From positions 1 through 53,075 of IMG/VR virus record IMGVR_UViG_3300042350_002696: 53,075 bases of DNA; one strand, written 5' to 3'. Origin of the DNA: a virus. A program made the translations under genes and the position numbers. The stretch's first letter is position 1. Each line of letters opens with the position of its first letter. This document shows, in pieces, positions 409-20,755 of this stretch. Under the pieces are notes generated by a model. It saw nothing but the letters and a program-made list of their open reading frames with translations. It had not been told where the DNA came from and did not search any database.

Positions 409-2091
409 CTACTGATTCACTGTTAAGTTACACCCCGCAGAAACATTACATACTCCGGATACAGTACTTCCATCGCTCATACTATGTGGCAAACTGTATG
501 TCTTAGAAGTTGATCCGGACTGGTTTAGAATAAAATTCCATGCTCCGCCACCGTTCTCTAACTGAACAGTCGCAGCATGACTGCCGCTTCCATCCTGAAT
601 TACGCTAGCATTATGATCGTTCCCAATTAACGTTAGATTTAAATAATGGTTCCCAGTTCCTTTTTGGTTCACGGACAGATCATTGCTGTTTCCGTTAACG
701 TTTAAGAACATGTTTTTTCCAGTTTCTCTTTGCTGTAGTATTAGGCTGTTTCCATTGCCGATGATGTCAGCCTCTAGATAGTGTCTAGATGATGTAGTTG
801 TTGTCTGTAAAATATCTGTGCTATTGTTATCACCATCGATATTTAAGATAGCATAATGGCTTCCACCAATCTGTTGGATCTGAACATCATTGTCGTTTCC
901 AACAATATTTACATTTGCATTATGACCGTTCGTCAAAGCAAGGTTGGCCGCTCTTCTCATCGCCTGTGAAGGATTGATACCTGACGAGTAAACCGGGGTT
1001 GGAGCAGATCCTGGGTTTGATACAGATCCTGAACCAGTCGCCGTTGATGTTGTTGTGTTGCCTGAATTGTAGTAGAATGTAATTTCTGCAATCTGCATAC
1101 TGTCACAGTTCAAACCACAGCCGTCTCCGGATTTAGTCGTGGGAAAGAATATGTAATAGTAGACATACGCATTGCTGTTTGTGACTGGAATTTTAGGACT
1201 GGTCCAGAATCTATCGTTACTAAGTGATAAAGCACCTTCTTGAATCAACGTCCAGTTTACACCGTCGTTACTTGCGTATAGCTTATAACTCGTCGGGTCT
1301 CTTCCTGAGAAGTCATTCGCAGTGGTAAGTGTAAACTCGTTTACCACTCGCCCAGCGTTTAGTTTAATAGTAACACCAGCGTTTTTCTTATCAAAGTTTA
1401 GATACTTTGTGTTTGGATTATTATCAAACGCTTGCGAAGCACCTTCACCCGATGGGCTGTTATTACTCGTAGGATAGTGATTGGTTATGTTAACATTCGA
1501 GCTGTTATTATAGATTGGAGTTGCGACAGCAGGTGGTGGCGCAGTCTGTCCCGCAGCCAACGGCGTTGAGCTTGGTGGAACATACGCTTGAAGTTGACTA
1601 TTCGTTGGGTTATCTTGAGTGACAGACCACGAACCGCTTTGACCAAGACTATATCCTTGACCGGTAGTGATGAGAGTTCCCCACATACCGTTGCCGTTAT
1701 AGAAGATCGCTCCGTTGGCTAATGCTCGAAACGAGCCTGTGTTGTTAATTATTTTGTATCTTGTGCCGTCGCTATTGAACACGGCCATACCGTAGGTGCC
1801 AGGATTGGTTGTACTATTAAAGAACCCAATGTATCTGCCATTACTGTTTGCGTCTGCAGTTTGTGCAGCTGTCCATCTAGCAGCCGAATTAGTCTGAGTA
1901 GCATAGTTCACGCTCGCAAAGATATAGTTAAATCCGCTCGCATGCAGTGTTCCGCCGGAAATATACCACTGCACGTCGAATATCTGCGCAGTGCTGAGCT
2001 TTAAGTCAGTGATAGCCGCAGCGGCAATACTAACGAACATAAGGTAAACGAGTATCGCGCTACTGAGTCTGGATAGTAGTGATAGAAACAT
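409..2091 (-). CDS. Large curlin-repeat adhesin with discoidin-like domain
   Basis: 560 aa from the ATG at 2091, chosen because GGAGGAACG sits just upstream; an ATG four codons earlier has no such site. Residues 1-26 form a signal peptide (hydrophobic core ending AAAA). Roughly residues 220-345 resemble an F5/8 type C (discoidin) carbohydrate-binding domain (SYKLYASNDGVNWTLI, then a C-terminal strand pattern). Residues about 390-555 carry curlin-like repeats with the N-G-N/D-N spacing and alternating Ile/Gln/Asn (IVGNDNDVQIQQ, IGNGNSLILQQ, VNGNSNDLSVNQ). Its start lies 32 nt inside the FecR-domain gene. By context it is the likely cargo of the phage CsgG/CsgF exporter: a secreted amyloid-forming adhesin. 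Stop is TAG. Confidence 0.8.
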   Translation of the reverse strand: MFLSLLSRLSSAILVYLMFVSIAAAAITDLKLSTAQIFDVQWYISGGTLHASGFNYIFASVNYATQTNSAARWTAAQTADANSNGRYIGFFNSTTNPGTYGMAVFNSDGTRYKIINNTGSFRALANGAIFYNGNGMWGTLITTGQGYSLGQSGSWSVTQDNPTNSQLQAYVPPSSTPLAAGQTAPPPAVATPIYNNSSNVNITNHYPTSNNSPSGEGASQAFDNNPNTKYLNFDKKNAGVTIKLNAGRVVNEFTLTTANDFSGRDPTSYKLYASNDGVNWTLIQEGALSLSNDRFWTSPKIPVTNSNAYVYYYIFFPTTKSGDGCGLNCDSMQIAEITFYYNSGNTTTSTATGSGSVSNPGSAPTPVYSSGINPSQAMRRAANLALTNGHNANVNIVGNDNDVQIQQIGGSHYAILNIDGDNNSTDILQTTTTSSRHYLEADIIGNGNSLILQQRETGKNMFLNVNGNSNDLSVNQKGTGNHYLNLTLIGNDHNASVIQDGSGSHAATVQLENGGGAWNFILNQSGSTSKTYSLPHSMSDGSTVSGVCNVSAGCNLTVNQ

Positions 2092-3157
2092 TCGTTCCTC
2101 CATCGTTTATTTGTACAACCGCAAATACTCCATCCTGAGTTACGTTATACGTTCCGTTCGTATCTAAACTTGTTGTCAGCATTGATATATGCGGTGAACG
2201 ATCAGAATCTAATAACATGAACTCTTCATTCACGACTGCGCGTATCCATGGAAAGTTCTTAATGTTAGGTAGTACTTCGCTTTCTTCCTCTTCTAGCATA
2301 CTCTCAAGAGATGCCACGTTGATTTCTAGAAGATTATCCAAATAAGTGTTATTCACTCTGTTTACGTCAAGCGAGTTGGTCGTTAATTCTTCATCTTCAG
2401 CAAGCAAGTCTTCAGAGAGTTCTTCATTCTCTAAGAGATCAACATCAAGTTCGGTTCGTATCTCTTCCTCTTCTTCATCGTTAGAAAATCCGCCTGGAAA
2501 TTCTGATGGAGGAACTATGATAAGATTGTTATTGATGTTTGATTGATCTAAAAGAAGTTTACGAGGATCCGCCGGAGATAGCCCGCTGTGAGACACCATA
2601 GTTGCTTGATAAGATTCATTTAGCATCACGGTTCCGCCATCAGTACTCACTGAGATGGATCCGACTGGGCATTCGTCTTCATTGAGAGTTTCGTCTGGGC
2701 AGCTAGGTAGGAGAATGATTAGACTGCGACCAAGCTCGTCAACCGTCATAGAGAAGTCTGTTCCTCTGACCGTAATGCTTGCCGTTGGCGTGCGGATGTC
2801 GACGTTCTCTCTGCTAGTTTTGGCTAGCAGACCAGATGTCATCTGAACTGTTCCAAGAGCAACCTCCATCGACATCTTACCAGCGCTCGTGTTTGGATCG
2901 TACACAAAATCATCAATCACTAGCTCACTCTGCTCTGTAATTTCAACTCGCGTGCCATCTTCAAATGTTAGGCCGAGCCGAGTATTAGCAGTAATTAATT
3001 GATCTAACATTTCAACACCAAAGCCCATCTCAACAGTGAGTTTATCACTGTCTCTTCTGGCTTCAGCTGCATTTCCTTTGAAATCAGTCACGGTCCCAAC
3101 TTCGGCAATCGCGAAGTTGGGAATGATCATCATTACGATGAATAAGATTCTCCACAT
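2060..3157 (-). CDS. FecR-domain secreted protein of the curli operon
   Basis: 365 aa from the ATG at 3157, which follows the stop of the upstream curlin gene by one base. Starting here exposes a signal peptide (MWRILFIVMMIIPNFAIA). Residues about 25-170 match a FecR domain: an early GTV motif, FEDGTRVEI, then TPTASITVRGTDFSM, which is characteristic of the family. The C-terminal half has an acidic Glu/Asp-rich stretch. FecR domains occur in periplasmic or surface proteins that bind or sense ligands. Position between two curlin-type genes suggests a role in export or fibre anchoring; that role is inferred from neighbourhood only. Confidence 0.85.
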   Translation of the reverse strand: MWRILFIVMMIIPNFAIAEVGTVTDFKGNAAEARRDSDKLTVEMGFGVEMLDQLITANTRLGLTFEDGTRVEITEQSELVIDDFVYDPNTSAGKMSMEVALGTVQMTSGLLAKTSRENVDIRTPTASITVRGTDFSMTVDELGRSLIILLPSCPDETLNEDECPVGSISVSTDGGTVMLNESYQATMVSHSGLSPADPRKLLLDQSNINNNLIIVPPSEFPGGFSNDEEEEEIRTELDVDLLENEELSEDLLAEDEELTTNSLDVNRVNNTYLDNLLEINVASLESMLEEEESEVLPNIKNFPWIRAVVNEEFMLLDSDRSPHISMLTTSLDTNGTYNVTQDGVFAVVQINDGGTNVSITTIQTQ

Positions 3158-3158
3158 A

Positions 3159-3776
3159 TTAGTGCTGAACGATATCCACGGTGTTAGTATCTCCATCTAT
3201 GTCAACATTTACGATATGTCCTGTAGATGTAGTCTGAGTAAGATTAATCACGTTGAAATCACTTGGTGTTGTCTGGCCGACGTTGAACACGTTGGTTGCA
3301 TCAGGAGCATTCAATGCAAAGTTGATTTCGTTATTATTACCAGTAAGATTGAGTGTAGTATCTGTGAGGTTGACTTGAATACCGCTGCAGTTACCGTTAA
3401 TGTAATCTTTACATAGAGTGATCACGTTATCGTTACCTATGACGGCTGCGACGAAATTATTGTCGACTCCGCCACTGATATTTGAAAGCACTTCGTTTAG
3501 ATCACCTTCAACACGATATTCATAGTTCGTGTCGTTAGCACTTACTTGAATAAAGATGTCAGCAATGTTTCCGTCACCATCTTGAACAATCTCGACGTTG
3601 ATGTCGTTACCGTTCACGATCATAGGAGCCGCATCGGTGTTGATTCTGTTGTTTCCATTTTGCTGAAGTACGTTTACGTTAGTACTATTTCCAGCCTGGT
3701 CGATATAAACTTCGCTTGCGAATGATGGAACCGCGATTCCTATCATAAGAGCAGAAGTTAATAATAGGTTTTTCAT
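3159..3776 (-). CDS. Curlin-repeat (CsgA/CsgB-like) secreted protein
   Basis: 205 aa with a signal peptide (MKNLLLTSALMIGIAVPSFA). The mature part is made of curlin-like units: Q-x-G-N-S-x-x-V-x-V-x-Q-x-G-N-x-N and repeated G(N/D)xNxV/I patterns, spaced about 20-40 residues, with high Asn/Asp/Thr. This is the composition of functional amyloid subunits exported by CsgG. Two cysteines (in a DYINGNCSG segment and before it) are unusual for CsgA. An AAGGAAATAA ribosome site precedes the ATG. It sits between csgG and the FecR gene in one tightly packed operon. Confidence 0.8.
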   Translation of the reverse strand: MKNLLLTSALMIGIAVPSFASEVYIDQAGNSTNVNVLQQNGNNRINTDAAPMIVNGNDINVEIVQDGDGNIADIFIQVSANDTNYEYRVEGDLNEVLSNISGGVDNNFVAAVIGNDNVITLCKDYINGNCSGIQVNLTDTTLNLTGNNNEINFALNAPDATNVFNVGQTTPSDFNVINLTQTTSTGHIVNVDIDGDTNTVDIVQH

Positions 3777-3794
3777 TTGAGTTATTTCCTTTTG

Positions 3795-4568
3795 TTATTG
3801 TTTGAAAGCCCAGTAGCCGTTCTCGGCACCTTCTTTGATCATTTCAACAACTGCGGCCTGAATCGCGAGTCTTACTGCATGGTTCACAGGTTCGTTCTGT
3901 GAATTACCAATTTCAAGTTCGACGTTCTCAGTACCTGCCTCTATAAACTTGAAAACACCTAAATTTGTACTTGTACTTAATACGGTTTTTGATACTGCTG
4001 TACTTGTTAAAACTTCACCAGATTTTACAGAAACAGCTCGCATTGAGACAGTGATCACATCTTCAGTGTAACGAGTGCTAGGTCCTATGCCAAGGTATCT
4101 TGCACCTGCGCCACCGGTTAATGTATTTGAATCGTAGCCAACGATTGCTCCCTCAACGATTACTCCTGCGAATAGCATAGGTGATAAAGGAGTTTCGTCA
4201 CCAACTTCTTCTCTCGTCTGACGTATAATCTGACGTTCGCGTGCTAGGTTCTCTAACCCTACACGTTCTACAACTCGGAACCAAGTTCCGTTTCCAGCAT
4301 CACGCAATGCTTTGATCACGTATTGTTCTGCACCCTGTGTAACTGCAGTCGAGATGTTAGCAAGTTTTTCGCTCGGTAGTCTCTGACCTGTCTTATCTTC
4401 GAACGAATACACCGCAACGACCATCGCACCCTGTGCTGGTGGCGGAAGATTAATGAAATCTTTCTCTGTCACGACGGCCTTTGGTGATTCAATTGGTATT
4501 CGATTCACTGTGGTAGAGCAGCCAGCAACGAGACCTGCGAATAAGAGTGATAATACTATCTTTTTCAT
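3795..4568 (-). CDS. csgG: CsgG-like outer-membrane curli secretion channel
   Basis: 257 aa, close to the usual CsgG length (about 260-280). The N terminus is a lipoprotein signal with lipobox LVAGC (Cys17). CsgG hallmarks are visible: PPPAQGAMVVAVYSFEDKTGQ, GTWFRVVERVGLENLARERQ near residue 100, and the C-terminal helix with AVRLAIQAAVVEMI. Known role: a nonameric outer-membrane pore exporting curli subunits. The ATG overlaps the stop of csgF, so the two are translationally coupled. No csgE, csgC or csgD is present in the window; the phage may borrow them or not need them. Confidence 0.93.
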   Translation of the reverse strand: MKKIVLSLLFAGLVAGCSTTVNRIPIESPKAVVTEKDFINLPPPAQGAMVVAVYSFEDKTGQRLPSEKLANISTAVTQGAEQYVIKALRDAGNGTWFRVVERVGLENLARERQIIRQTREEVGDETPLSPMLFAGVIVEGAIVGYDSNTLTGGAGARYLGIGPSTRYTEDVITVSMRAVSVKSGEVLTSTAVSKTVLSTSTNLGVFKFIEAGTENVELEIGNSQNEPVNHAVRLAIQAAVVEMIKEGAENGYWAFKQ

Positions 4569-5023
4569 TAGAATGCAAACTCCCCTACTGGTACATCAAA
4601 GCTGGATGCTAAGTCTCCGTTTGAGTCGTAGACTTCTATGTATATTCTATCGTCTGTTCCACGCATCCACTTTATTCTGTCACCAAATGGTGTCTCGACT
4701 TCTGTCCATTCTCCAACGACAGCACCACCGCCTTCGCCAAATAGGTTATCCGCTATCTGACGCGAGAGCTGTGCGTATATTCTTGATTCAAGGTTGTTTT
4801 GAAATTTGTAGACGTTGCTATTGCGATACTCGCGCTCAGCGCGCTCGATAGCAGCGAGTTCATCAGCGATTATCTTGTCTTTTCTTTGTTGCTCTAACTG
4901 ATGAATTGTAAGTACGTGTGTACTATATCCGTTTCCGCTAAACGCTGGGCTATTGAATTCAAAAACTTCAGCGTATGCAGGCGTACTTAAACATAAAGAT
5001 GTTATAAGCAGTCTCTTTATCAT
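4568..5023 (-). CDS. csgF: CsgF-like curli assembly factor
   Basis: 151 aa with a signal peptide (MIKRLLITSLCLSTPAYA). The mature N terminus carries the CsgF motif that plugs into the CsgG pore: FEFNSPAFSGNGYST, comparable to the family F-x-N-P-x-F-G-G-N. A second CsgF block follows (LESRIYAQLSRQIADNLFGE). Known role: docks in the CsgG constriction and helps anchor the nucleator at the cell surface. First gene of the curli operon. No strong sigma-70-like promoter was recognised directly upstream; a late-type promoter at 5698 could serve the whole block. Confidence 0.9.
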   Translation of the reverse strand: MIKRLLITSLCLSTPAYAEVFEFNSPAFSGNGYSTHVLTIHQLEQQRKDKIIADELAAIERAEREYRNSNVYKFQNNLESRIYAQLSRQIADNLFGEGGGAVVGEWTEVETPFGDRIKWMRGTDDRIYIEVYDSNGDLASSFDVPVGEFAF

Positions 5024-6164: not shown

Positions 6165-6349
6165 GTTGGTTGGTGTGAGTGTCACCAGTTCTGTTTCGAG
6201 GTCGGTGACCCACCCAAGTAGATTATGCTGCGAGAGCGTAAGCTACAGGAGCTGCGTTTGTGTTTGCAGTTGTAATTTTGGCTGAATAACGTAGGCCAAC
6301 ACGGTAATCTCCACTTGCTTTCAACACCTGTCGATCCCTAGTCAGCCCC
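6165..6349 (-). ncRNA. ssrA: tmRNA coding piece (5' part of permuted ssrA)
   Basis: The minus strand begins GGGGCTGAC at 6349, then GGGATCGACAGG, matching the conserved 5' end of tmRNA. A TTGGC/GCCAA hairpin precedes the tag frame at the position of pseudoknot 1. The tag runs from a GCA resume codon (6265-6267) to TAA (6223-6225) and encodes ANTNAAPVAYALAA, with the ALAA end recognised by ClpXP/ClpAP-type proteases. A GTCACC/GGTGAC hairpin (6181-6209) follows. The 3' boundary is approximate. GGGGCTG pairs with CAGCTCC of the acceptor piece, which lies upstream in the transcript, so the gene is circularly permuted. Confidence 0.88.
6223..6267 (-). other. tmRNA tag-peptide reading frame
   Basis: Fourteen codons plus TAA: A-N-T-N-A-A-P-V-A-Y-A-L-A-A. 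The first Ala is the resume codon. This is longer than the common 10-residue tag of gamma-proteobacteria and similar in length to alphaproteobacterial tags. Confidence 0.85.
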
Positions 6350-6708
6350 GCCAAAAGTAAATTAAAGGTTATGAAGATTGTGATGGTCGTTGTCATATGT
6401 GTGAATTGCATGACAGTTATGACATAAAATTCTACACTTACTGATTTCTTCCATCAACATTTCCATACCCCAACGAGTAAGTTGTTTAGCAGAATATTTT
6501 GGATGCTTTGTGCTAGGATCCAAATGATCAAATGCTAATGCTTGTGGATGTTTATTAAAACCACAAATTTCGCATCCTCTGCTTATTTTATACTCATTTA
6601 GAAACGCGCGCCTTTCCAGACCCTTGTCTTTCTTATACTGCTTAAAAACTTCTTTATCTGCAAACATAGATTCCTCCTTTGTTTCGCAAACATCGTTTAA
6701 TTTACTTT
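6350..6708 (-). other. Intervening sequence of permuted tmRNA
   Basis: Segment between the CCA end of the acceptor piece and the GGGG start of the coding piece. Its two ends form a perfect 16-bp inverted repeat (6351-6366 with 6696-6711) that would extend the acceptor stem in the precursor. The loop is unusually long because it carries a complete HNH endonuclease gene. The stop codon of that gene lies inside the left arm of the repeat. Confidence 0.82.
6362..6667 (-). CDS. HNH homing-type endonuclease inside tmRNA intervening sequence
   Basis: 101 aa from the ATG at 6667, preceded by AAAGGAGGAATCT; a longer frame would run through the tmRNA acceptor domain and is rejected. Typical small HNH nuclease: a zinc-binding pair CEICGF, the catalytic block LAFDHLDP, then CRILCHNCHA. 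Known role: metal-dependent double-strand or nicking endonuclease that often acts as a homing element. It lies wholly between the acceptor and coding pieces of the phage tmRNA, so the pre-tmRNA would also be its message. Probably a selfish insertion tolerated because the intervening loop is discarded during processing. Confidence 0.88.
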   Translation of the reverse strand: MFADKEVFKQYKKDKGLERRAFLNEYKISRGCEICGFNKHPQALAFDHLDPSTKHPKYSAKQLTRWGMEMLMEEISKCRILCHNCHAIHTYDNDHHNLHNL

Positions 6709-6768
6709 TGGTGGAGCTGCGGGGATTTGAACCCCGGTCCAGAATGTCTATCGTCTGCTTCAACGATT
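6709..6768 (-). ncRNA. ssrA: tmRNA acceptor piece (3' part of permuted ssrA)
   Basis: On the minus strand a T arm CGGGG-TTCAAAT-CCCCG (6720-6736) is followed by CAGCTCC, A, and CCA (6709-6711): exactly the 3' end of tmRNA. CAGCTCC pairs with GGGGCTG of the coding piece about 360 bp further downstream. The 5' boundary is set near the predicted start site of the promoter at 6775-6804 and is approximate. Ala identity is expected from the conserved G-U pair at position 3-70 of the joined acceptor stem. Confidence 0.88.
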
Positions 6769-6774
6769 ACTAGT

Positions 6775-6804
6775 TATATATAAACCAATTTGAGAAAATG
6801 TCAA
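6775..6804 (-). promoter_or_regulatory. sigma-70-like promoter of tmRNA
   Basis: TTGACA (-35, 6799-6804) and TATATA (-10, 6775-6780), 18-bp spacing. Start site predicted just at the acceptor piece. Confidence 0.7.
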
Positions 6805-6974: not shown

Positions 6975-7742
6975 TTATTTCCTAACATAATGAAAGTTGA
7001 CAATTTGTTCAACGACTTCTTCAAAGTCATTCAGATATAGCATATTCGCGCTATCAGACGGAGAACTATCCGGATCCGGATGAACTTCTAAAAAGAAATT
7101 AGATACACCAAGAGCACTAGCTGCACGACATAAACCAGGAACATAATTCCTATTACCGCCACTACTCGACCCCATGCCGCCAGGCTTTTGAACAGAGTGT
7201 GTTGCATCAAATACAAACGGAACATCGTAATTATCCATAATGTACTGGATACCAGTGTAATCGACCACAAGAGTGTTATACCCAAAGCTCGTTCCCCTTT
7301 CAGTTAGCCAGACTTCTTTTGCTCCTTCGGTTTTCGAGAGAATACCTTTGACATCCCACGGCGCAAGAAACTGTCCTTTTTTAATATTGACGATTTTGCC
7401 AGTCTCTACGGCAGCTCGGATAAGATCCGTTTGGCGGCAAAGAAAAGCAGGGATTTGAATAACATCTACATAATCCTTTACGAACTCTACCTGCCAAGTT
7501 TCGTGAACGTCGGTTACGATGTTCAGTTCCAACATATGACTACGAAGAACGTCAAAGTCATGCATAGTCTTTTCAATGCCAAGACCGCGTTTTCCTAGTG
7601 AGCTTGTTCGATTTGCTTTATCAAAACTAGCTTTAAAGAAGTATTCAACTCCATACTTCTTACATACCAGTTCGCAATGCTTTGCGATTTCAAGAGATTG
7701 CTCTAGACTCTCGTGTTGACATGGGCCAGCAATGATCCTCAT
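6975..7742 (-). CDS. kdsA: 3-deoxy-8-phosphooctulonate (Kdo-8-P) synthase, metal-dependent type
   Basis: 255 aa. Condenses phosphoenolpyruvate and arabinose-5-phosphate to Kdo-8-P for the LPS inner core. Family blocks in order: IAGPC (residues 4-8), KASFDKANR, VIQIPAFLCRQTD, NIKKGQFLAPW, ERGTSFGYN, FDATHSVQKPGG, FFLEVHPDPDSSPSDSANM. The Cys of GPC with the later His, Glu and Asp are the ligands of the metal-dependent class; the E. coli metal-free class has Asn there. A little shorter than cellular enzymes (about 280), missing the N-terminal beta-hairpin. Its ATG overlaps the stop of the upstream cupin gene. A phage copy suggests remodelling or boosting host LPS synthesis. Confidence 0.93.
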   Translation of the reverse strand: MRIIAGPCQHESLEQSLEIAKHCELVCKKYGVEYFFKASFDKANRTSSLGKRGLGIEKTMHDFDVLRSHMLELNIVTDVHETWQVEFVKDYVDVIQIPAFLCRQTDLIRAAVETGKIVNIKKGQFLAPWDVKGILSKTEGAKEVWLTERGTSFGYNTLVVDYTGIQYIMDNYDVPFVFDATHSVQKPGGMGSSSGGNRNYVPGLCRAASALGVSNFFLEVHPDPDSSPSDSANMLYLNDFEEVVEQIVNFHYVRK

Positions 7743-16394: not shown

Positions 16395-16472
16395 TGGTGG
16401 TCCAAGCGGGATTTGAACCCGCGGCCGTGAGTTTTAGAGACTCGCGCTCTAACCAAGCTGAGCTATAGGACC
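16395..16472 (-). tRNA. tRNA with CTA anticodon (predicted amber suppressor)
   Basis: Acceptor GGTCCTA/TTGGACC, A73, encoded CCA, normal D and T arms. Stem GAGT/ACTC holds loop CTCTAAA, so the anticodon is CTA, which reads UAG. The loop differs by one base from that of the tRNA-Trp at 16635-16709 (CTCCAAA). The fifth stem pair is a C-A mismatch. Confidence 0.82.
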
Positions 16473-20116: not shown

Positions 20117-20680
20117 TTATTTCTTTCTATTTCTTGCGCTTTCAGTCATTTTCTTTTTTGTTTCTTCTGAAAATGTTTGTCTTGCCCGCGCTTCTTTTAT
20201 CTTATTTTTTGTTTCTTCTGAAAGTTTTCTTCCACTCATTGTTTTTGATATTTTATCTTTTTGATTTGATGATATTGTTTGACCTTTGTTCCAAGCAGCG
20301 TTATCTTTATAGTGTTCTTTAAGACCTTCACTTATTTTTTTACGATGATCTACAGAGCTACTTATTTCTTTCATGTAAGAGCCGTGCTTTTTCCCTTTGA
20401 AATGAGGTCCTCCTTCTCCGCCAATTCCGGCGTTGTAAGTATCTTTTCTGGATACAAACTCTTCTGTTATCAACTCTTTCTCTTTTGTATTCATTTCTTC
20501 TTCAGTATCGAAGACAAATAGTATCTCTTTAGTAAAGTTCTCTTTACCATATTTCTTCATGGCAGACCTTATGAACTTTCCAGAGCCATAATATCTATCA
20601 TTGAGATTGGTAGTTTGATGCTTTCCTATGTATATTTTTCCGTTAAGCTCATTAGTTATTTGGTATATTGTGTAAAGCAT
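20117..20680 (-). CDS. GIY-YIG homing endonuclease
   Basis: 187 aa from the ATG at 20680 (AAAAGGAGATTATA upstream). N-terminal GIY-YIG domain: LYTIYQITNELNGKIYIGKH, then RYYGSGKFI and KEILFVF with a catalytic Glu. The C-terminal half has NUMOD3-like DNA-binding repeats (SEETKNKIKEARARQ, SEETKKKMTESAR). A truncated 5' half of a tRNA lies directly upstream (20722-20755), suggesting the element inserted into or destroyed that tRNA. Late octamer at 20698. AT-rich, mobile. Confidence 0.92.
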   Translation of the reverse strand: MLYTIYQITNELNGKIYIGKHQTTNLNDRYYGSGKFIRSAMKKYGKENFTKEILFVFDTEEEMNTKEKELITEEFVSRKDTYNAGIGGEGGPHFKGKKHGSYMKEISSSVDHRKKISEGLKEHYKDNAAWNKGQTISSNQKDKISKTMSGRKLSEETKNKIKEARARQTFSEETKKKMTESARNRKK

Positions 20681-20697
20681 TATAATCTCCTTTTGTC

Positions 20698-20705
20698 TAT
20701 TTATA
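20698..20705 (-). promoter_or_regulatory. T4-type late promoter (TATAAATA)
   Basis: Exact octamer 18 bp before the GIY-YIG start codon. Confidence 0.6.
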
Positions 20706-20721
20706 CAAAAAGATATTTCAT

Positions 20722-20755
20722 AGCGGGCAACTCTAACCAATTGAGCTAATCCCCC
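20722..20755 (-). pseudogene. Truncated tRNA (5' half only)
   Basis: GGGGGAT, TA, D arm GCTC-AATTGGTTA-GAG, then the start of an anticodon stem (GCCCGC), where homology to a tRNA stops. No matching ATCCCCC 3' half was found in the window. Adjacent to the GIY-YIG gene. Confidence 0.7.

Follow-up and report, generated by a model that had tools for sequence, protein, structure and literature searches.

Free-standing, intronless homing endonucleases of the HNH and GIY-YIG types are found in T4-like phages, where their genes sit between other genes and spread by cutting alleles that lack them. Homing endonuclease genes also occur within tmRNA genes: in the intron passages of a survey of 97,179 unique tmRNA sequences, 79 of which come from phages, such genes are reported from group I introns only, they are few, and they encode LAGLIDADG enzymes (PMC11915505). 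Ten phage tmRNAs are described in a further report (PMC4131195), and two-piece tmRNAs, which mature by tRNA-type processing (PMC11915505), are already known from phages, mostly marine and aquatic ones (PMC9004378). The passages of the survey on permuted genes give one nominally archaeal case, unique there, in which a tRNA-Ala gene lies in the intervening sequence, and also mention a permuted gene that contains a repeat element and measures 1,152 bp; long spacers are hence not restricted to phages (PMC11915505).

In case of the Methylophilales phage Melnitz, the annotated tmRNA is 453 nt long with a spacer of 142 nt, and a comparison with named phages matched only four Melnitz isolates, in which it is identical. 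The Melnitz spacer exhibits a Shine-Dalgarno-like GGAG and an ATG-initiated reading frame that runs into the coding piece; this frame is unannotated and does not encode an HNH protein. The permuted tmRNA of phage HTVC008M has a spacer that is short (49 nt by count of the printed sequence) and contains no gene. Our searches of the open-access PMC literature did not turn up any protein gene described within the spacer of a permuted tmRNA. The locus described here was originally predicted to be a novel combination of a phage-encoded permuted tmRNA and an HNH gene nested in its loop: the first element is known from other phages (PMC9004378), whilst for the nested HNH gene no open-access PMC report was found.

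Results

The stretch of DNA that was analysed, referred to here as the window, is a virus record of 53,075 bases. Using cmscan, the RF04321 model (tmRNA_permuted) was aligned over its full length (1-213 of 213) to positions 6771-6223 on the minus strand with 104.6 bits (E 2e-19), and the RF01849 model (alpha_tmRNA, 1-355 of 355) to positions 6817-6178 of the same strand with 50.5 bits, just over its cut-off of 50; the check with alpha-tmRNA covariance models that had accompanied the original prediction hence gave matches over the cut-off for both families. The acceptor (tRNA-like 3') piece, as delimited by the RF04321 match and the sequence, occupies 6709..6771 (-) and contains the T arm (6736-6720) followed by CAGCTCC (6719-6713), A (6712) and CCA (6711-6709). 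The coding piece (tRNA-like 5' and mRNA-like parts) lies downstream at 6178..6349 (-), starting with GGGGCTG at 6349 and with an approximate 3' end taken from RF01849, so that the predicted arrangement, acceptor piece first and GGGGCTG piece second, is seen both in the sequence and in the RF04321 alignment. Pairing of the two pieces affords an acceptor stem of 7 bp with G3:U70, the pair that confers alanine identity, and the CCA end is encoded. The tag frame at 6223..6267 (-) reads ANTNAAPVAYALAA over 6267-6226, exactly the tag that had been predicted, and terminates in the proteolysis signal ALAA followed by TAA (6225-6223). Directly upstream of the acceptor piece lies a sigma-70-like promoter (6777..6804, minus strand) with TTGACA at 6804-6799, a 16-nt gap and TATATA at 6782-6777; the site scores 10/12 in locus L017, where it is identical to that of the window, and is not listed by a generic promoter scan of the window, which requires T as the last -10 base. 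ARAGORN reported 33 tRNAs and no tmRNA in the window, presumably because the insert is long.

With the piece order, G3:U70, CCA, the T arm and a tag with its stop all present, the circularly permuted tmRNA gene in this phage window is confirmed as real, and chance is a very unlikely origin given the covariance match, the selection pattern of the nested HNH frame and the recurrence in other contigs. The RF01849 score, barely at the cut-off (50.5 vs 50), could be taken to mean that the tmRNA is a decaying relic and that the HNH gene merely lies in intergenic space, but the RF04321 score of 104.6 bits, the intact acceptor stem, G3:U70, CCA, tag frame and promoter-like site, and the recurrence of the same arrangement with tmRNAs that pass the model are at odds with decay: on the covariance score and the intact parts we rejected this explanation, which we regard as highly improbable.

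The neighbourhood of the tmRNA gene contains a DAHP-synthase-family (KdsA-like) gene at 6975-7742 (-), relatives of which were found in 177 viral-contig stretches, and the curli genes csgG and csgF together with a curlin-repeat protein at 409-5023 (-). The closest named-phage relatives of the window's csgG are those of Melnitz and HTVC008M, and its CsgG is 45% identical to Melnitz CsgG. A GIY-YIG homing endonuclease (SegE/phrog_314-like) lies amid the tRNA array at 20117-20740 (-), and the 33 tRNAs include one with anticodon CTA at 16395-16472 (-), which is called Pyl by ARAGORN and is a possible amber suppressor.

Between the two pieces lies an intervening segment (spacer) of 359 nt (6350..6708, -), which is expected to be cut out. 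A perfect 16-bp helix joins a 5' arm at 6696..6711 (-), the first 3 nt of which are the CCA, to a 3' arm at 6351..6366 (-), which includes the HNH stop codon; both arms were identified as an inverted repeat and in the predicted fold. This helix (6711-6696 / 6366-6351) continues the acceptor stem, and stem and acceptor stem together have arms of 24 nt that are 92% complementary. The perfect 16-bp stem proposed for the loop ends is real, although only 13 bp lie within the spacer and the other 3 use the CCA tail. The predicted fold of the precursor includes the closing helix and has a z score of -5.8, with 0/100 shuffles equally stable. A group I intron around the HNH gene was also considered and rejected: the 34 Rfam matches at gathering level in the window include no intron family.

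The HNH gene (6362..6667, minus strand; ATG at 6667, TAA at 6364-6362) encodes 101 aa and lies entirely within the spacer, with a Shine-Dalgarno AGGAGG at 6673..6678 (-), 5 nt ahead of the start, and so the prediction of a complete HNH gene with its own ribosome site in the loop stands. Against PHROGs the protein matched HNH endonuclease family phrog_2255 (E 1.5e-22); Pfam gave no match up to E 1, and the nested relative L556 scored 21.3 bits against Pfam HNH, for which the cut-off is 21.4. In an alignment of 23 rows, C32, C35, H48, C82, C85 and H86 are invariant and N84 is nearly so. With regard to the beta-beta-alpha-metal fold of HNH enzymes, an AlphaFold2 model of the protein (pLDDT 87.4) retrieved no solved structure with Foldseek at E 0.001, and a sequence search of solved structures from the HNH alignment gave nothing at E 0.01. 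The top VIA match of the model was the Gme HNH nicking endonuclease with a weak Z of 4.5, T4 endonuclease VII appeared with Z 3.5, and HNH enzymes or related nucleases make up many of the leading VIA entries, all at Z 4.5 or below. Comparison of the window with its relative L008 reveals 17 synonymous differences over 54 sites and 12 nonsynonymous differences over 249 sites, corresponding to a dN/dS of 0.12. A conserved nuclease signature and a low dN/dS would also be expected if the enzyme acted on host or rival DNA, such as the host ssrA or a competing phage, with the tmRNA location serving to couple expression; as we identified no target site and no tie to host DNA, we consider this distinctly improbable.

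A search of viral contigs with the HNH protein of the window gave 6 loci, 5 at 100% identity and 1 (L008) at 90%: the protein is identical in all five contigs that carry the window's HNH type, and L008 lies on a 14.45-kb contig that is also the source of locus L033. By rough identity figures, the window and L033 share 303 of 333 aligned bases in the spacer (91%), 110 of 151 in the coding piece (73%) and 61-64% in the 1-kb flanks, the latter being in our judgement about what a gapped alignment of unrelated DNA affords. The 36 nt ahead of the spacer, T arm included, are identical between the window and L033/L008. The L008/L033 spacer is 26 nt shorter and has no Shine-Dalgarno site; at 6694-6667 of the window, a ATGTTTGC repeat and 26 extra nt, which are missing in L008, bring this site. 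The L008 contig, which is short, was absent from the 54 CsgG loci found and from the best 80 KdsA-like loci.

Locus L040 on the other hand is a relative of the window, with a KdsA-like protein of 91% and a CsgG of 87% identity. Its tmRNA differs in the T arm, and the spacer, 63 nt long, has a AAAAGTAGTGC/GCACTACTTTT stem and contains no HNH gene. The identity figures for L040 (61% upstream, 75% downstream, 116/152 or 76% in the coding piece) show how rough such values are, as this true relative also reaches just 61% upstream and its coding piece is close to the 73% of L033; the contrast between the two loci hence sits in the spacer and T arm and not in the coding piece. The comparison of phage relatives with and without the HNH gene, suggested along with the original prediction, was in this way carried out: L040 provides an HNH-less loop with an equivalent stem, and an HNH-less allele with nearly identical flanks was not present among the loci compared. 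Spacer and adjoining arm seem to have a history unlike that of their neighbourhood, a pattern that either homing accompanied by co-conversion or local recombination would be expected to leave.

An alignment-based scan of viral contigs identified 278 relatives of the HNH protein, and the analysis covered the best 80. Ten of these 80 have an identity of at least 55% and all ten are located in permuted tmRNA spacers, namely the 6 window-type loci and L556-L559 (55% identity), in which the tmRNA has a different T arm and a spacer of 327 nt; RF04321 confirmed the tmRNA of L556 with 85.3 bits (E 4.8e-15). For the other 70 of the best 80, no permuted tmRNA was detected alongside in flanks of up to 1.5 kb with corrected and relaxed finders. 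Nested HNH genes were found in three distinct types only, and in a tree of 55 distinct rows a branch supported at 99/96 leaves all three on the same side, a grouping that would suit a lineage of homing enzymes dedicated to this slot. Amongst named phages, the same HNH-tmRNA was not found at the nucleotide level; tblastn identified HNH relatives in 219 named phage records, each below 60% identity, and in three such records (S-RIP1, Lyrsu03 and EFA-2) no tmRNA is annotated near the HNH relative in the stretch shown.

We surveyed phage permuted-tmRNA spacers by scanning viral contigs with three DNA patterns for tmRNA pieces, ignoring spacer content; the first pattern was built from the window's own acceptor piece, and the HNH spacers L017 and L033 are for that reason in the set by design. 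Among the matches listed, 183 of 260 loci exhibited a permuted tmRNA, 170 of them unique, and the unique spacers had a median length of 75.5 nt, with 66 of at least 90 nt and 33 of at least 140 nt. The longest sense reading frame of each spacer was compared with those of 300 dinucleotide shuffles, a stop being allowed up to 24 nt into the coding piece. Among the matches listed, sense frames with p <=0.05 were obtained for 25 of the 33 spacers of at least 140 nt and for 31 of the 66 of at least 90 nt, and antisense frames for 1/33 and 1/66, counts that are not independent since the unique spacer sequences are related to one another. The 1,349-nt spacer of L301 is a false pairing and hence an artefact within the 33; after removal of L301, L017 and L033, the values for the matches listed are 22/30 (at least 140 nt) and 28/63 (at least 90 nt) in sense and 1/30 (at least 140 nt) in antisense. 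Eight of the 33 spacers of at least 140 nt listed had no significant frame, and in the length range of 90-110 nt only 1 of the 20 listed had one.

In an earlier set, produced with a finder that missed overlapping GGGG starts, GGAG, GAGG or AGGA was present within a 14-nt stretch that ends 3 nt upstream of the start for 19 of 28 significant frames, compared with a background of 10% of positions in the same spacers. Groups for dN/dS were taken from this earlier set as well, and homologous nested frames of different tmRNAs gave values, some unsure because of large dS, of 0.07-0.31 in a 41-aa family, 0-0.09 in a 63-aa family, 0.10 for another 45-aa pair, as well as 0.25 and 0.34, so that dN/dS is low in several unrelated families; the pair L303-L289 (saturated) and the family of L382, L355 and L356 (no differences) were uninformative. 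All 17 nested loci that were scanned passed the RF04321 cut-off. Ten nested proteins gave two weak PHROGs matches only (E 0.019 and 0.032), and four nested families gave no match to named phages. Nested small-frame families are represented by L242, L376, L387, L386, L341, L231, L317, L343, L303, L289, L205, L405, L268 and L284, among other loci, and several of the products are, judged by eye, likely membrane proteins. As a bacterial control, one of the three patterns was applied to genome contigs (mostly Alphaproteobacteria among the 80 titles shown): 113 of the 117 loci listed gave 113 unique spacers with a median of 27 nt and a maximum of 71 nt. The HNH gene is therefore no lone oddity: many phage tmRNA loops hold small reading frames that look selected, and from these sequence patterns the phage tmRNA spacer looks like a cargo slot for small protein genes.

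The phage permuted tmRNAs also have a common anatomy. Stems of at least 8 bp close 110 of the 152 phage spacers that measure at least 25 nt, and 106 of these 110 stems are in one register with ends offset by 4 nt: the stem begins at or beside the base after CCA, and approximately 4 nt are left free before GGGG. The nested gene starts 11-24 nt after CCA in 26/30 cases, and in 15 of 26 nested cases with a stem a Shine-Dalgarno-like motif (from a broader motif set) begins within the 5' arm of the stem. Of the significant nested frames among the matches listed, 11/30 use the UAG of the conserved coding piece as stop. A promoter score of at least 10/12, calculated over a 110-nt stretch that stops 60 nt upstream of the CCA end, was reached by 103 of 169 phage permuted tmRNAs compared with 35 of 743 random windows from the same loci, which suggests that tmRNA and nested gene most likely share one promoter.

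One nested family, the 45-aa HWISW protein, was searched for by its own sequence in viral contigs. This search gave 59 loci, in at least 48 of which the gene lies in a permuted-tmRNA spacer, with 15 different T arms. The script did not place the remaining 11 copies in a spacer: L647 is spanned by RF04321, inspection by eye showed that L682 and L686 are cut by contig ends, and the others have no intact tmRNA around them, some retaining pieces of one. Cmscan was applied to 19 HWISW loci (18 unplaced by the first finder and L684, the spacer of which was implausibly long); RF04321 spans the gene in 13 of these 19, a separate tmRNA lies near the gene in L642, L684 and L687, and no tmRNA was detected in L658, L662 and L688. 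The copies outside an intact tmRNA (L673, L662, L683, L658, L642, L684, L687 and L688) include some with spacer-arm or acceptor-piece remnants, such as L673, which keeps the spacer arms, and some beside a second full tmRNA; they look like a cassette moving out or a tmRNA that was replaced. In 23 of 28 distinct HWISW tmRNAs, the nested gene terminates at the coding-piece UAG in position +13; for two no start was found, and three have the stop elsewhere. The dN/dS was 0-0.22 in 9 of 10 pairs and 0.51 in L210-L213. Of the 378 pairs formed by the 28 tmRNAs, 89% have a higher identity in the spacer than in the coding piece, with medians of 0.91 and 0.75, respectively.

This sharing of HWISW spacers implies that cassette exchange may not need an HNH enzyme, and it raises the alternative of passive hitchhiking, in which the spacer is a safe and strongly transcribed site, genes are kept for expression from the tmRNA promoter, and ordinary recombination between the conserved tmRNA arms, with no homing, transfers the cassette. 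Many unrelated small genes without signs of a nuclease occupy the same slot, and the HWISW family occurs under 15 T arms with spacers that resemble each other more than the coding pieces do, which speaks for this alternative; the nested HNH proteins however group together, which fits target specialisation, and HNH proteins of phages are classical homing enzymes. We hold hitchhiking to be a serious possibility, albeit one that we would not expect to apply here.

Discussion

The reading that we prefer, with a probability of about 0.72, is that of a working phage permuted tmRNA whose spacer acts as a slot for nested genes and holds, in the window, an HNH gene from a lineage specialised on this slot. 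The anatomy of the locus, the selection pattern of the HNH gene, its recurrence in three tmRNA types and a spacer common to unlike phages are its observed basis, and from these, together with the known tRNA-type maturation of two-piece tmRNAs (PMC11915505), we infer processing, translation, cutting and homing. A single promoter would generate a precursor containing the acceptor piece, the spacer with the HNH gene and the coding piece. The helix of the spacer ends would extend the acceptor stem and so bring the cleavage site behind CCA face to face with the one ahead of GGGG. Host tRNA-processing enzymes would release the two tmRNA pieces, provided that a 359-nt spacer is processed in this way. 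Translation of the HNH protein would take place on the precursor or, after its release, on the stem-closed spacer, which retains the stop codon of the gene. Host SmpB and alanyl-tRNA synthetase would serve the phage tmRNA; smpB was not found in 8 records, the window included, several of which are fragmentary. An intron is dispensable for the endonuclease gene, as it is inserted into RNA that would be removed in any case. Judged from the transfer patterns, the HNH gene most likely spreads by intronless homing: the enzyme would cut HNH-less tmRNA genes of co-infecting phages, and repair would copy the spacer together with adjoining acceptor and coding-arm DNA.

A broader interpretation, which we consider unlikely, is that many phage permuted tmRNA genes are dual transcripts, acting as tmRNA precursor and mRNA, with a mobile-slot spacer, a nested gene that senses its own tmRNA and the HNH enzyme as the homing element by which the slot was opened or is being spread. 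Each molecule would then be contested between ribosomes and the tRNA-type processing machinery: for nested frames that end at the UAG in the coding piece, RNase P cleavage would remove this stop and convert the nested message into a non-stop mRNA, the product of which would be tagged by the mature tmRNA, and the nested gene could in this manner sense the supply of tmRNA, as arfA does.

In many phages, a part of a fragmented RNA gene that had been taken for waste seems to harbour conserved protein genes, and this cargo may help to explain why phages keep the permuted form of tmRNA. The locus would represent a natural case of one transcript that has to be translated and also processed by tRNA-maturation enzymes, and it illustrates a way in which an endonuclease gene could reside within a structural RNA gene with no need of an intron. 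There is also a gap in annotation, with ARAGORN silent on the tmRNA of the window and the nested Melnitz frame unannotated.

Comparison with known systems places the window beside Melnitz and the pelagimyophages, in which a permuted tmRNA likewise occurs in curli-bearing, T4-like aquatic phages (PMC9004378); the tmRNA section of that report contains no mention of genes inside the loop, whereas the loop of the window holds an HNH gene. As in the intron-bearing tmRNAs described in the survey, a homing endonuclease gene resides in a tmRNA gene and does not destroy the tmRNA (PMC11915505). Those introns are however self-splicing and located in the T loop, whilst the window exhibits no intron family and an HNH enzyme; the segment hosting the gene is the spacer of a permuted gene, and its flanks are not rejoined. 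The permuted tmRNA with a tRNA-Ala gene resembles the window in carrying a gene inside the intervening sequence, but this is an RNA gene in a case that the survey does not list as phage, and the gene in the window encodes a protein (PMC11915505). The arfA gene, the non-stop mRNA of which is repressed by trans-translation (PMC10107115), is an analogy only: it suits nested genes with their stop in the coding piece and excludes the HNH gene of the window, which has its own stop codon. In comparison with the free-standing endonucleases of T4-like phages, the HNH gene of the window is again a small, intronless nuclease gene, yet one that lies inside a structural RNA gene.
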